Shown in pieces: positions 60,447-64,000 of a DNA stretch of 64,000 nucleotides. Every line of letters starts with the position of its first letter. Position 1 is the first letter of the stretch. The stretch is from Pedococcus aerophilus (GTDB taxonomy: Bacteria; Actinomycetota; Actinomycetes; Actinomycetales; Dermatophilaceae): contig NZ_BAAARN010000001.1 in the NCBI RefSeq assembly GCF_039532215.1, forward strand, positions 124,001-188,000, read 5' to 3'. Made by a program: the position numbers and the translations under genes. The notes beneath the pieces were generated by a model, which worked only from the letters and a program-made list of their open reading frames with translations, had not been told where the DNA came from and did no database searches.

Positions 60447-61153
60447 GCGGCGGACCTGCGGGTCAGGGCGAAGTAGCGGTCCTCGAGGCGCTCGCCCGCG
60501 GTGACCTCGGCCAGCGAGCCCTGCGCGACGACCTGCCCGGAGGCGACGACGACGATGTGGTCGGCGAGGCGCTCGGCCTCCTCGAACGAGTGCGTCGTGA
60601 GGACGACCGCGGCGCCGGCATCCGCGACCTCCCGGACGAGGTCCCAGACGTCCAGCCGGGCGTGCGGGTCCAGCCCGGCACTCGGCTCGTCGAGGAACGC
60701 GACCTCGGGGCGTCCGACCAGGGCGGCCGCGAGCGCCACGCGTTGCTTCTGGCCACCGGAGAGGCGCCGGACCGAGGTGCTCGCGAAGTCGGCGATCCCG
60801 AGGCGGGTGACCAGCTCGTCGAGGGGAGCCGGGGCGGCATACAGCGAACGCAGGTGCCGCAGCAGGGGGAGGGGACGCGCGGCGTTCGGGAGGCCACCGT
60901 CCTGGAGCATCACGCCGACACGGGCGCGGTGGTCGGCGCCCGCGTTCCACGGGTCGGTGGACAGGACGCGGACCTCGCCGGCGTCACCGCGGCGCAGGCC
61001 CTCGCAGCACTCGACCATCGTCGTCTTGCCGGCGCCGTTCGGGCCGAGGACGGCGGTGACCTGCCCCGACTGCGCCGACCAGGAGGCCCCGTCGAGGGCG
61101 ACGACGCCGCCGTAGCGCTTGACGAGGCCGGACACGGCGACTGCAGGTGGCAC
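60443..61153 (-). CDS. ABC transporter ATP-binding protein
   Basis: The 236-residue ATPase has Walker A GPNGAGKTTMVE, Q-loop VGVMLQDGGLP, signature RLSGGQKQRVALAAALV, Walker B VAFLDEPSAGLDP and the switch His in LTTHSFEEAE. It pairs with the ABC-2 permease. Start GTG 61153 lies six bases from TACACT (61165-61160), so it is probably leaderless. Confidence 0.92.
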   Translation of the reverse strand: MPPAVAVSGLVKRYGGVVALDGASWSAQSGQVTAVLGPNGAGKTTMVECCEGLRRGDAGEVRVLSTDPWNAGADHRARVGVMLQDGGLPNAARPLPLLRHLRSLYAAPAPLDELVTRLGIADFASTSVRRLSGGQKQRVALAAALVGRPEVAFLDEPSAGLDPHARLDVWDLVREVADAGAAVVLTTHSFEEAERLADHIVVVASGQVVAQGSLAEVTAGERLEDRYFALTRRSAA

Positions 61154-61159
61154 GGCCCG

Positions 61160-61165
61160 AGTGTA
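61160..61165 (-). promoter_or_regulatory. -10 box of the ABC exporter operon
   Basis: TACACT on the minus strand is followed by six bases and the GTG at 61153. Confidence 0.6.
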
Positions 61166-61247
61166 GGTCCGCGCACGCCCGCGGCCCGCCTCGGGTGCTG
61201 CGGGGCCTCAGGCGGTCGTGCGACGCCAGGACGCGGGCCCGGACTGG

Positions 61248-61282
61248 GCACCTGCCCCATGTGGAGGGGCACCTCAGGCGCG
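61248..61282 (+). promoter_or_regulatory. 35-bp upstream element, copy 1
   Basis: This element and 61561-61595 agree at 28 of 35 bases. The conserved parts are GCA(C/T)CTGCCCCATGTGG, a 5-base gap and CACCTCAG, then CGCG. It lies 89 bases (start to start) before the first micro-protein gene. In this copy TGCCCC and GGGGCA also form an inverted repeat. Confidence 0.8.
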
Positions 61283-61289
61283 AAGTCTC

Positions 61290-61323
61290 GGTCCTGCCGC
61301 ACCCGCCCGGACGCGGCAGGACC
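61290..61323 (+). promoter_or_regulatory. leader hairpin touching the ribosome site
   Basis: A perfect 11-bp stem (61290-61300 with 61313-61323) ends directly at GAAGGAG (61324-61330), the ribosome site of the first micro-protein gene. Confidence 0.65.
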
Positions 61324-61336
61324 GAAGGAGTCGACC

Positions 61337-61528
61337 ATGAGCCTCACCGCCCACCCGTACGTCGTCCTCGCCGAGCAGCAGTGGAAGCAGCAGAGCCTCG
61401 GCCACGCGAACCTGGCGCCCCGTCGCCCGTCCAGGACCCGCATCCGGCTGCGGTCCGTGCTGGGACTCGCCCTGACAGGACTGCACGTCCAGCGGCACGA
61501 CGCACGGCACCGCGCACGGCCCGTCTGA
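61337..61528 (+). CDS. basic micro-protein 1 (63 residues)
   Basis: The product begins MSLTAHPYVVLAEQQWKQQS, is rich in Arg and His in its second half and ends RHDARHRARPV. There is no clear membrane helix, though a short hydrophobic patch (SVLGLALTGLHV) is present. The ATG has a good GAAGGAG six bases upstream. It resembles the next micro-protein: MS-x-x-A-x-P...AE near the start and LHxxRHxAR near the end. I do not recognise the family. It has its own 35-bp element upstream and a hairpin terminator downstream. Confidence 0.65.
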   Translation: MSLTAHPYVVLAEQQWKQQSLGHANLAPRRPSRTRIRLRSVLGLALTGLHVQRHDARHRARPV

Positions 61529-61534
61529 GGTGTC

Positions 61535-61555
61535 CCGGACCGGTCGCCGGTCCGG
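61535..61555 (+). terminator. terminator hairpin between the two micro-protein genes
   Basis: A perfect 9-bp stem (61535-61543 with 61547-61555) and a TCG loop lie six bases after the stop and six bases before the second 35-bp element. Confidence 0.8.
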
Positions 61556-61560
61556 ATAAG

Positions 61561-61595
61561 GCATCTGCCCCATGTGGCCCCCCACCTCAGCCGCG
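61561..61595 (+). promoter_or_regulatory. 35-bp upstream element, copy 2
   Basis: This is the second copy of the element at 61248-61282, with the same internal spacing, 84 bases (start to start) before the second micro-protein gene. Confidence 0.8.
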
Positions 61596-61644
61596 CAGCG
61601 TGGGACCCGTCGAAGCACCACCACGAGAAACCGAGGAGAACACC

Positions 61645-61821
61645 ATGAGCATCAGTGCAGACCCGCTGTCCGTCGCCGCCGAGGTCGCCTACCGCCGCGA
61701 GAGCCTGTCCGCCGGGCTGCCGACCGTGGGTCGGGCCCGTCGCCACCACGGCCTCGTCGAGAGCCTCCTGCAGCGCAGCCCCCGCCTGCACCACCGCCAC
61801 GGTGCCGCGCGTCCGGCCTGA
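61645..61821 (+). CDS. basic micro-protein 2 (58 residues)
   Basis: The product begins MSISADPLSVAAEVAYRRES and ends LHHRHGAARPA. It shares start and end patterns with micro-protein 1, so the two are probably a diverged duplication. The ATG has GAGGAG upstream. There is no membrane helix. No family recognised; the His/Arg-rich end could bind nucleic acid or metal (inference). Confidence 0.65.
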   Translation: MSISADPLSVAAEVAYRRESLSAGLPTVGRARRHHGLVESLLQRSPRLHHRHGAARPA

Positions 61822-61927
61822 CGTGGGCAGCGCGGCCGTCGTGGGCGTCGTGGGCACCGCGACAGGGTCCCCGTCGGCGCTTCGGACCCACCCCGCCGGG
61901 GCGAACGCCTCTGACATGATCGACGGC

Positions 61928-64000
61928 GTGGGTCTGGATGCCGGCGGGAGCAGCCTGTTCGTGGGGCGGGCCGAGGAGGCCCGCCGCCTCGTCGCCCTCA
62001 CCGGAGTGGGCTCGCCTGGGGTCGGTGGTCCTGGCGCCAGTGGTCCCGGTGCTGGTGGTCCCGGTGCTGGTGGTCCCGGTGCTCGTGGTCCCGGTGCCGG
62101 GGCTCCCGGTGCCAGGCACGGCAGCGTCGTCCTGTCCGGGGATGCGGGGATCGGCAAGACGCGCCTGCTCGCGGAGGTTGCCCGCACGGCCCGCGACCAG
62201 GGCTGGACGGTCCTCGTCGGGCACTGCCTGAGCGAGGCCGGGCAGTCGCTGCCCTACCTGCCCTTCCTCGAGCTGTTCGGCCGGCTCGAGGCGCTCGTCC
62301 CCGAGCAGGTCGAGCGATCCGCCAGAGCGCACCCCAGCCTGTCCCGGCTCCTGCCGGGCCACCGGTCGGAGGCCTACGCCCCGGGGATCCCCGGCGCGAA
62401 CGGGCCGAGTGCGAACGGCCCCGGCGCGAACGGCCCCGAGGCCACCGACCGCGGCGACCTCGTCGCAGCGGTGCACGCCGCCCTCGACGAGATCGGGGCC
62501 ACCACGCCCCTGCTCGTCGTCATCGAGGACGTCCACTGGGCCGACCAGTCCTCGCGCGACCTGCTGACCCTGCTGTTCACGCGCGGCTTCACCCACCCCG
62601 TGAGCGTCGTCGTCTCCTACCGCAGCGACGACCTGCACCGCCGACACCCGTTGCGCGCGACGCTGGCGCACTGGTCCCGGCTCGCCGAGGTCGAGCGCCT
62701 CGACCTGCCGCCGCTGCCCGACGCCGCGGTCCGCGAGCTCGTCCACGGTCTCCAGACGCACCCGCTCGACGACGGCGACGTCCGGGCCGTGGTCGAACGC
62801 GCCGAGGGCAACGCGTTCTTCGCCGAGGAGCTCGTGGCCGCCTCGGCCCTCGGGGGCGCCCGCCTCGCCGAGGACCTGTCGCGGCTGCTGCTCGTGCGCT
62901 TCGACCAGCTGGGTACATCGGGGCAGCACGTCGTGAGGATGGCCTCGGCCTCCGGACGGCACGTCTCCCACCGGCTGCTCGCCGCGGTCGCGGACCTCCC
63001 CGAGCACGAGCTCGACGCCGGGCTGCGCGACGCCGTGGAGCACCACGTCCTCGTGCCGCTCGACACCGGCGGGTACGCCTTCCGCCACGCGCTGCTCGGC
63101 GAGACGGTCTACGACGACCTGTTGCCGGGGGAGCGCGTGCGCGCCCACGAGAGGTATGCCGCGGCCCTCACCGCCGCCCTCACCGGAGATCGCGCGGCGG
63201 GGTCGTGGGCGGAGCTGGCGCGCCACGCCTCGGCCGCCGGGCAGCGGGACGTCGCCAGGGACGCCAGCGTCCGGGCGGGGGACGCCGCCCTGCGGATGGC
63301 CGGTCCCGAGGAGGCCTGGCGGCACTTCAGCCACGCCCTGTCGCTCACCCCGGACCACGCCCCGGACGACGAGGTGGACACGGTGACCCTGCGGGCGGCC
63401 GCCGCAGCCGTCGCCGTCGGGCGGCAGCACAAGGCGCTCGACCTGCTCCAGGAGCGCCTCGACCGGCGATCCGCCGATGCACCGCTGGTGGGGCGTGCCG
63501 AGCTGCTCGCCGCCCTCGCGACCGCCGCCCGCATCACCGAGAGCACCCTCGACACGCTGGCCACGACGACCGAGGGGCTGACGCTGCTGGATGGCGACGA
63601 CGGGCACCACCCCCGTGTGCGGGCCAAGCTCCTCGCAGCCCGGGTCCAGGCGCTCGCCGACCGAGGACGCGACGAGGAGGCCCTCGTCGGGATCGACGAG
63701 GCCGTGGCCGCCGCGCGGGCCGCAGGGCTCGACGAGCTCGCCGAGGAGGTGCGGGTGGTCGCCGCCCGCATCACGGAGAAGGCCGGTGATCCCGAGGGGT
63801 CGCGACGCGCCCTCGAGGCTCTCGTCAGCTCACCCGGCCCCCTCGGCGAGGCCGCCGAGGCCCGCGCCTTCCACCACCTCGGGTGGCTCCACCACCGCGC
63901 CGGGCGGCTCGACGAGGCCGTGGACGTCTACCTGCGGGGGACCCAGCGGGCCCGCACCGCGGGACGGCCGTGGGCGCCGTACGCCTTCGACGGTCGGCTC
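61928..64000 (+). CDS. large STAND/AAA-type ATPase regulator (incomplete, cut by window end)
   Basis: The frame is open to the last base; about 690 residues are visible. Residues about 10-30 start an AAA_16-type module (SLFVGRAEEARRLV), Walker A is GDAGIGKTRLLAE, Walker B LLVVIEDVHWADQSSRDLL, and after about residue 400 the protein is a run of helical TPR-like repeats. This is the layout of MalT/LuxR-type STAND regulators, whose DNA-binding helix-turn-helix lies at the C-terminus, beyond the window. I favour GTG 61928, seven bases after CATGAT, as a leaderless start; ATG 61916 is in frame. Two 15-bp tandem repeats interrupt the ATPase part. Confidence 0.8.
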   Translation, partial: MGLDAGGSSLFVGRAEEARRLVALTGVGSPGVGGPGASGPGAGGPGAGGPGARGPGAGAPGARHGSVVLSGDAGIGKTRLLAEVARTARDQGWTVLVGHCLSEAGQSLPYLPFLELFGRLEALVPEQVERSARAHPSLSRLLPGHRSEAYAPGIPGANGPSANGPGANGPEATDRGDLVAAVHAALDEIGATTPLLVVIEDVHWADQSSRDLLTLLFTRGFTHPVSVVVSYRSDDLHRRHPLRATLAHWSRLAEVERLDLPPLPDAAVRELVHGLQTHPLDDGDVRAVVERAEGNAFFAEELVAASALGGARLAEDLSRLLLVRFDQLGTSGQHVVRMASASGRHVSHRLLAAVADLPEHELDAGLRDAVEHHVLVPLDTGGYAFRHALLGETVYDDLLPGERVRAHERYAAALTAALTGDRAAGSWAELARHASAAGQRDVARDASVRAGDAALRMAGPEEAWRHFSHALSLTPDHAPDDEVDTVTLRAAAAAVAVGRQHKALDLLQERLDRRSADAPLVGRAELLAALATAARITESTLDTLATTTEGLTLLDGDDGHHPRVRAKLLAARVQALADRGRDEEALVGIDEAVAAARAAGLDELAEEVRVVAARITEKAGDPEGSRRALEALVSSPGPLGEAAEARAFHHLGWLHHRAGRLDEAVDVYLRGTQRARTAGRPWAPYAFDGRL
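62024..62113 (+). repeat. 15-bp coding tandem repeat, six units
   Basis: Units of GGTGGTCCCGGTGCT (with variants) occupy 62024-62113. They encode Gly-Gly-Pro-Gly-Ala pentapeptides between the start of the AAA module and its Walker A motif. Confidence 0.9.
62393..62437 (+). repeat. 15-bp coding tandem repeat, three units
   Basis: Units of GGCGCGAACGGCCCC (with variants) at 62393, 62408 and 62423 encode Gly-Ala-Asn-Gly-Pro repeats ahead of the Walker B region of the same protein. Confidence 0.85.

Follow-up and report, generated by a model that had tools for sequence, protein, structure and literature searches.

A conserved promoter-like element accompanies a LAL regulator gene and micro-protein genes in many actinobacteria

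A duplicated sequence element in the genome of Pedococcus aerophilus is, judged from its sequence, a real promoter-like element that is conserved in many actinobacteria. We think it likely that this element is the core of activator-dependent promoters and that a large ATP-binding LuxR (LAL) regulator, encoded beside one of the copies, switches these promoters on by direct action, that of its own gene among them. Computation established the conservation and fixed geometry of the element, its linkage to the regulator gene and their co-occurrence, as well as coding constraint on the accompanying micro-ORFs in one genus. We found no published description of the gene-control system that the element marks: the literature searched, which under-represents subscription journals, held no account of a system combining the element, a LAL regulator, micro-ORFs and WhiB7, in agreement with the initial annotation, which knew of no described system of this kind. 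Among the papers listed by the search, the letters CTGAGGTAG occurred only in an unrelated one.

Architecture and spread of the element

The window analysed here is a stretch of 64 kb (G000:C1:124001-188000) from a genome of 4.02 Mb, and it holds two copies of the element (Table 1). In the register of the initial annotation, in which the copies begin at 61248 and 61561, our recount gave the same figure as reported there, 28 identical bases of 35, and the distances of 89 and 84 bases from element start to ORF start also matched. No third copy was found on either strand of the 64-kb window, where the next best place agreed at 23 of 35 bases. Random occurrence throughout the genome, named in the initial annotation as grounds for abandoning the idea, was not what we saw; the pattern as first described had two matches in the 4.02-Mb genome at up to three mismatches, and its reversed control had none. 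The element is thus real and duplicated as proposed, but its true length exceeds the 35 bp first described. Alignments of 24 copies (A1, gap-free over 75 columns) and of 46 copies (A2, with few gaps) give a full element of about 55 bp whose 3′ end is NANNNT. Its consensus is GATAMGGCA-NN-YG-CCCSATGTGG-N5-YACCTCAG, followed seven columns on by an invariant A (A52) and four columns later by a conserved T (T56), which is invariant in the 24 copies and present in at least 90% of the 46. The GATAMGG block is absent from copy 1, which has GGACTGGGCA in its place.

Table 1. Features of the two units and the adjoining regulator gene (window coordinates)
Feature	Position	Strand	Basis
Element copy 1, 75-base footprint (alignment A1)	61233..61307	+	Pattern scan, alignment
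Element copy 1 core, GGGCACCTGCCCCATGTGG-N5-CACCTCAG	61246-61277	+	Sequence
Element copy 2, 75-base footprint, GATAAGGCATCTGCCCCATGTGG-N5-CACCTCAG	61546..61620	+	Pattern scan, alignment
Putative degenerate −10 of unit 1, AAGTCT	61283..61288	+	Deduced; alignment columns 51-56
Putative degenerate −10 of unit 2, CAGCGT	61596..61601	+	Deduced from alignment of copies
CCTCAG (inverted form) upstream of element 1	61206..61211	+	Sequence
CTGAGG 5′ of element 2; candidate half-site for the regulator, sharing bases with the micro-ORF 1 stop codon	61525..61530	+	
9-bp GC hairpin between units, no T-run	61535..61555	+	Sequence, fold
Micro-ORF 1, 63 aa with a basic C-terminal region	61337..61528	+	ORF list, alignment
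Micro-ORF 2, 58 aa	61645..61821	+	ORF list, alignment
Regulator gene of the LAL (large ATP-binding LuxR; MalT) type, 1030 aa counted from ATG 61916, continuing past the window	61916..64000	+	Domain search

The initial annotation had noted that no normal −10 box fits the element and had invoked an activator or an alternative sigma factor. We likewise found no consensus sigma-70 promoter and no consensus −35 at the window elements, but the fixed NANNNT would fit a degenerate −10 that keeps the two most important positions, with a transcription start expected near column 63. Because this degenerate −10 is present, an alternative sigma factor would not be required, and of the two possibilities the activator is favoured. 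That an alternative sigma factor reads the element, with the LAL gene merely its most conserved target, appears improbable to us. Such a factor would account for an element that covers the −35 region at a fixed distance from NANNNT and has no consensus −35, but A52 and T56 are what an ordinary −10 would show, the gene lists that we inspected have no sigma gene next to their loci, the presence of the element follows that of the LAL gene, and the phased repeats upstream suit an activator. These repeats have the form CTNAGG. In the 90-mers upstream of 49 copies we counted 58 such hexamers, with at least one in 37 of the 49, compared with a mean of 3.9 (maximum 10) in 100 shuffles, a test that overstates independence because many of the 49 copies are related. 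The sites cluster near −28, −40 and −51 relative to the element in these 49 copies, and a phased array of this kind would suit a multimeric activator.

The element probably acts at the DNA level, since folding of 24 copies with RNAalifold returned three pairs and no double-sided change, and a search of window positions 61000-62000 with the Rfam 15 covariance models gave no match at E≤1. An RNA element was rejected on the same two results. Control at the RNA level, in which the element would belong to a 5′ leader (a riboswitch or attenuator) and the micro-ORF would encode a leader peptide for the regulator gene, is accordingly the least probable of the readings that we weighed. The micro-ORF does usually precede the regulator on the same strand, GATAMGG is readable as an upstream −10, and leader ORFs are known for whiB7 genes; yet no regulator gene lies directly behind micro-ORF 1 of the window or the micro-ORF of locus L184, and at L028, L136 and L270 the element stands directly before a whiB7-like gene with no micro-ORF between them. 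The terminator that had been placed between the two units did not hold up. We found only a GC hairpin there, a terminator search returned zero terminator-like sites, the fold z-score was −1.6, and a canonical intrinsic terminator was rejected.

In the family, a 29-base pattern with up to three mismatches was found in 18 of 186 genomes, at 21 places, against 3 for the reversed pattern. With one exception, each family copy has an ORF of some 50-67 codons beginning 65-127 bases further on. Two of the places, one each in G161 and G165 (L040, L041), were dropped as chance matches, as no element with an ORF was found there, and so were two spurious weak matches at L036:2011 and L037:15866 and an opposite-strand match in L039. 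Models trained largely on copies adjoining the regulator widened the range, the sequence-only model R1 giving matches at E≤0.01 in 56 of the 297 genomes of the order (with 25 places at E<1e-6 among the matches listed) and the broader model R2 giving matches in 100 of the family's 186 genomes (E≤0.001) and in 114 of the 393 genomes of the class (E≤0.002), including families with genomes of 6-11 Mb. Finally, a scan of 84,980 species genomes, possibly omitting the window's own, recovered the exact pattern in 46 stretches (47 copies), mostly from Nocardioides and also from Phycicoccus, Pedococcus, Knoellia, Janibacter, Flexivirga, Allobranchiibius and Aeromicrobium; Nocardioides dominates these stretches and all copies share ancestry, so the counts are not independent. 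Two metagenome-assembled genomes labelled Acidimicrobiales, which is another class, also carried the exact element (L202, L213), with mis-binning a possibility. One of these two held a distant regulator homologue (31%) and the other held none.

The LAL regulator gene and its linkage to the element

The large gene behind the second copy, which runs past the end of the window to G000:C1:189008, is predicted to encode a regulator of the LAL/MalT type by its ATP-binding domain and its C-terminal helix-turn-helix. Pfam AAA_16 matched residues 67-232 at 84.7 bits (cut-off 32.6), and GerE, the LuxR-type helix-turn-helix, matched residues 967-1023 at 65.7 bits (cut-off 23.5). The regulator alignment contains the Walker A motif GDAGIGK, and the domain search gave a weak TPR match in the middle of the protein. 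The initial annotation had described a STAND/AAA gene at this place; the large gene and its AAA_16 domain were confirmed, but the STAND and NACHT models remained below their curated cut-offs (nSTAND3 19.8 against 27.2, NACHT 19.9 against 26.7, nSTAND_NTPase5 15.9 against 34), and Pfam gave no match to a SARP domain. In-frame repeats, GPGAGG- and ANGPG-like, lie in the N-terminal part (window 62015-62110 and 62385-62440). A search of the window's genome for homologues of the regulator gave a single match at E≤1e-10.

The suggestion that this neighbour regulates the shared element was strongly supported by comparison, both of loci and of whole genomes. In 42 of the 46 exact-pattern stretches, tblastn (E≤1e-5) placed a regulator homologue downstream of the element on its strand, mostly behind a micro-ORF, and the distance from element to regulator is 255-672 bases in all of these but one, in which it is 2470. 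An ORF led by a Shine-Dalgarno sequence follows 40 of the 47 copies, although one of these ORFs is the whiB7-like gene itself and that of L202 is doubtful. In the other four stretches we found a whiB7-like gene (L217 and L220) or nothing recognisable (L213), or the stretch stopped 250 bases past the element (L228). Three further sets of loci were compared. The regulator was on the element strand in 35 of 44 loci, the other nine comprising whiB7-like genes in L027, L028, L090, L134, L136 and L140 and weaker cases in L087, L091 and L133. It was found in 19 of 20 loci in a second set, L184 having a micro-ORF only. In a set of 40 loci picked to include second copies it lay downstream in 18 and upstream in L287, while the other 21 were made up of eight whiB7-like genes, six loci of a DUF1206 type (L262-L267) and seven lone micro-ORFs, contig ends or unclear cases. 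A micro-ORF with no regulator within the stretch examined was seen at L184, L276, L277 and L296, and the element matches at L087, L091, L133, L284 and L292 were weak or unclear.

The element and the regulator also occur together in genomes. From the 186 genomes of the family we compared 27, nine of them picked for having the element and 18 for lacking it, and found the regulator (E≤1e-30) in eight of the nine and in one of the 18 (Fisher p=3.5e-5); genera g3, g5 and g30 each hold both states. The two exceptions are G017, which has no element and shows partial regulator matches (best 2e-37), and G005, which has an element and a micro-ORF and in whose genome a regulator homologue was not found. 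At the G005 locus (L299, G005:C5) the ORFs after the micro-ORF resemble pieces of a desaturase by sequence reading.

whiB7-like genes and other candidate targets

We sought whiB7-like genes in 53 genomes, most of them picked for element matches, and found the element, as model hits, 19-286 bases upstream of such a gene in 15 genomes from seven genera (G076, G077, G079, G080, G062, G206, G110, G112, G115, G122, G131, G033, G043, G044 and G168). An ORF intervenes between the two in G076, G079 and G044. Pfam Whib was confirmed in eight of the 15 encoded proteins, and several of the putatively element-driven genes encode WhiB family proteins ending in RGRPRK or GRPRK, which we take to be an AT-hook-like motif. 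In this ending they resemble WhiB7/WblC, as compared with the available part of PMC3905903; unlike WhiB7/WblC, the promoter here would be the element and not the AT-rich whiB7 promoter.

The regulator is present in all 15 of these genomes, on another contig than the whiB7-like copy in ten and 352 kb to 3.8 Mb away from it in five. A second strong whiB7-like match exists in 13 of the 15, with none in G043 and G062, and at L027 two whiB7-like genes lie about 5 kb apart (G076:C8:4218 and 9215). Among 37 genomes examined, five had no whiB7 match at E≤1e-8, and in G399, G219, G272 and G413, which have no whiB7 match, the element nevertheless adjoins the regulator. The presence of the regulator in 15 of 15 genomes, together with genomes that have no whiB7 match and yet keep both element and regulator, indicates that the constant partner of the element is the regulator and not WhiB7.

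In place of the element, the main whiB7 gene of the window's genome (L142, G000:C1:1267000-1277000) and one whiB7 gene of G077 show a promoter rich in AT, together with a short ORF upstream and a GC hairpin that runs into a string of T's; in the window's genome this leader resembles an attenuator. With the regulator as constant partner and a whiB7 gene that lacks the element in the window's own genome, we rejected WhiB7 as the main reader. It is very improbable that proteins of the WhiB7 family bind the element as a GC-rich variant of the promoters that depend on WhiB7, with the LAL gene among the WhiB7 targets. Such a reading would explain the element before whiB7-like genes in 15 genomes and fits the activation by WhiB7 of its own gene described in the part of PMC3905903 available; the same part states, however, that known WhiB7 promoters require an AT-rich stretch next to the −35, whereas the element is GC-rich in this region (CCCSATGTGG) in the 46 aligned copies. 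It also sits poorly with the whiB7 genes of the window's genome and G077 and with the four genomes that have element and regulator and no whiB7 match.

In genus g50, six genomes (L262-L267) have a second, weaker element followed by a micro-ORF and a DUF1206 membrane-protein-like gene, with a Pfam match to DUF1206 in L265 and the same N-terminus in the other five. A partial element-like match in L133:8980-10833 precedes a predicted secreted protein with legume-lectin-like and PKD domains.

Micro-proteins and the proposed mechanism

The starts of micro-ORF 1 and micro-ORF 2 are preceded by GAAGGAG and GAGGAG, respectively. Their products had been described as paralogous; at 63 and 58 codons they are related but not close, being 35% identical in alignment, mostly through the N-terminal MS(I/L)xA(D/H)P...AE. 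An alignment of 37 micro-proteins shows a near-invariant Glu and an adjacent aromatic-basic pair near the N-terminus (E-h-x-[YW]-[RK]), the rest being Arg-rich and variable, and the micro-proteins of the large-genome families align poorly. Pfam had no match for the two micro-proteins of the window and that of L027 and none that was credible for ten relatives (one chance-like match at 0.066, below the cut-off), and NCBIfam had no match for four micro-proteins. Protein-coding constraint is clear in genus g30, where dN/dS was 0.09-0.47 in 36 pairs and differences by codon position were 250/168/592. For the window's genus the values point to moderate constraint on micro-ORF 1 (dN/dS of 0.17-0.65 in 15 pairs) and weak constraint on micro-ORF 2 (0.35-1.36 in 28 pairs; 469/524/637 by codon position). 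We consider it most likely that the micro-proteins serve the regulator as partners or feedback ligands, with a role as effectors nearly as likely.

From these comparisons we infer that the LAL protein binds directly and that it activates and does not repress, and we likewise infer the −10, the part played by the micro-proteins and the signal. An ATP-bound, multimeric LAL protein would bind the element and the phased upstream CTNAGG half-sites and recruit ordinary (primary-sigma) RNA polymerase to the weak −10. Unit 2, consisting of the element, micro-ORF 2 and the regulator gene, would then be autoregulated, and unit 1, consisting of the element and micro-ORF 1, would be a second target of the same regulator. 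The micro-proteins would be translated and would act with or on the regulator, for example as a feedback ligand, rather than serve as mere leaders. The loci support a predicted regulon of the regulator itself and small genes and, elsewhere, of whiB7-like genes and, in one genus, a DUF1206-linked micro-ORF; the regulator's own gene and the micro-ORFs would be targets everywhere and the whiB7-like genes in some lineages. The whiB7-like and DUF1206-linked targets of relatives would lend this regulon a stress-response flavour, and because of the association with whiB7-like genes our guess is that antibiotic or translation stress is the signal. A class-wide actinobacterial stress regulon, in which the LAL protein would sense antibiotic stress, translation stress or a comparable threat, activate its own promoter and in several lineages call up an extra WhiB7, while the micro-proteins, as a dedicated family, bind it directly through their conserved N-terminal patch, is a tentative and rather unlikely extension.

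Parts of this arrangement recall known systems. MalT of E. coli binds arrays of short asymmetric sites and is held back by small partner proteins. The regulator described here resembles MalT in its ATP-binding domain, TPR-type middle and LuxR helix-turn-helix, but the match of its helix-turn-helix to the MalT model reached 39.5 bits against a cut-off of 537, and the recognition sequence differs. With LAL/MalT-type regulators in general it shares its size, the N-terminal ATP-binding domain and the C-terminal LuxR helix-turn-helix. From its size and a position near gatB, we guess that SCO5506 of S. coelicolor is the orthologue of the window's regulator. LAL regulators are called poorly studied in the available part of PMC3282765, which counts 14 putative LALs in S. 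coelicolor, among them SCO5506 (1091 aa); within the literature searched, SCO5506 appeared only in a table of that paper. The LALs covered in that part are tied to antibiotic clusters or pleiotropic effects, and none of them is reported there together with the element, micro-ORFs or whiB7-like targets. The SARP-LAL regulator PimR offers a further parallel, in that short sites recur upstream of a promoter that is activated; according to the available part of PMC5930380, however, PimR has no LuxR helix-turn-helix and binds heptameric CGGCAAG direct repeats through its SARP domain, whereas the repeats here have the form CTNAGG, and for this regulator Pfam reports GerE but not SARP.

LAL regulators are common in actinobacteria, and the hosts here include Nocardioides, Phycicoccus, Knoellia and large-genome families. 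The analysis points to one orthologous group of LAL proteins to which belong a precise signature in the DNA, a regulon predicted to be controlled in trans and a family of micro-proteins that has no name. It also suggests that activators of the intrinsic antibiotic response of the WhiB7 type may be under a second regulator in at least seven genera. As the element can be read from genome sequence, the regulon may be mapped in any host, which would provide a direct route to the signal of the LAL protein.
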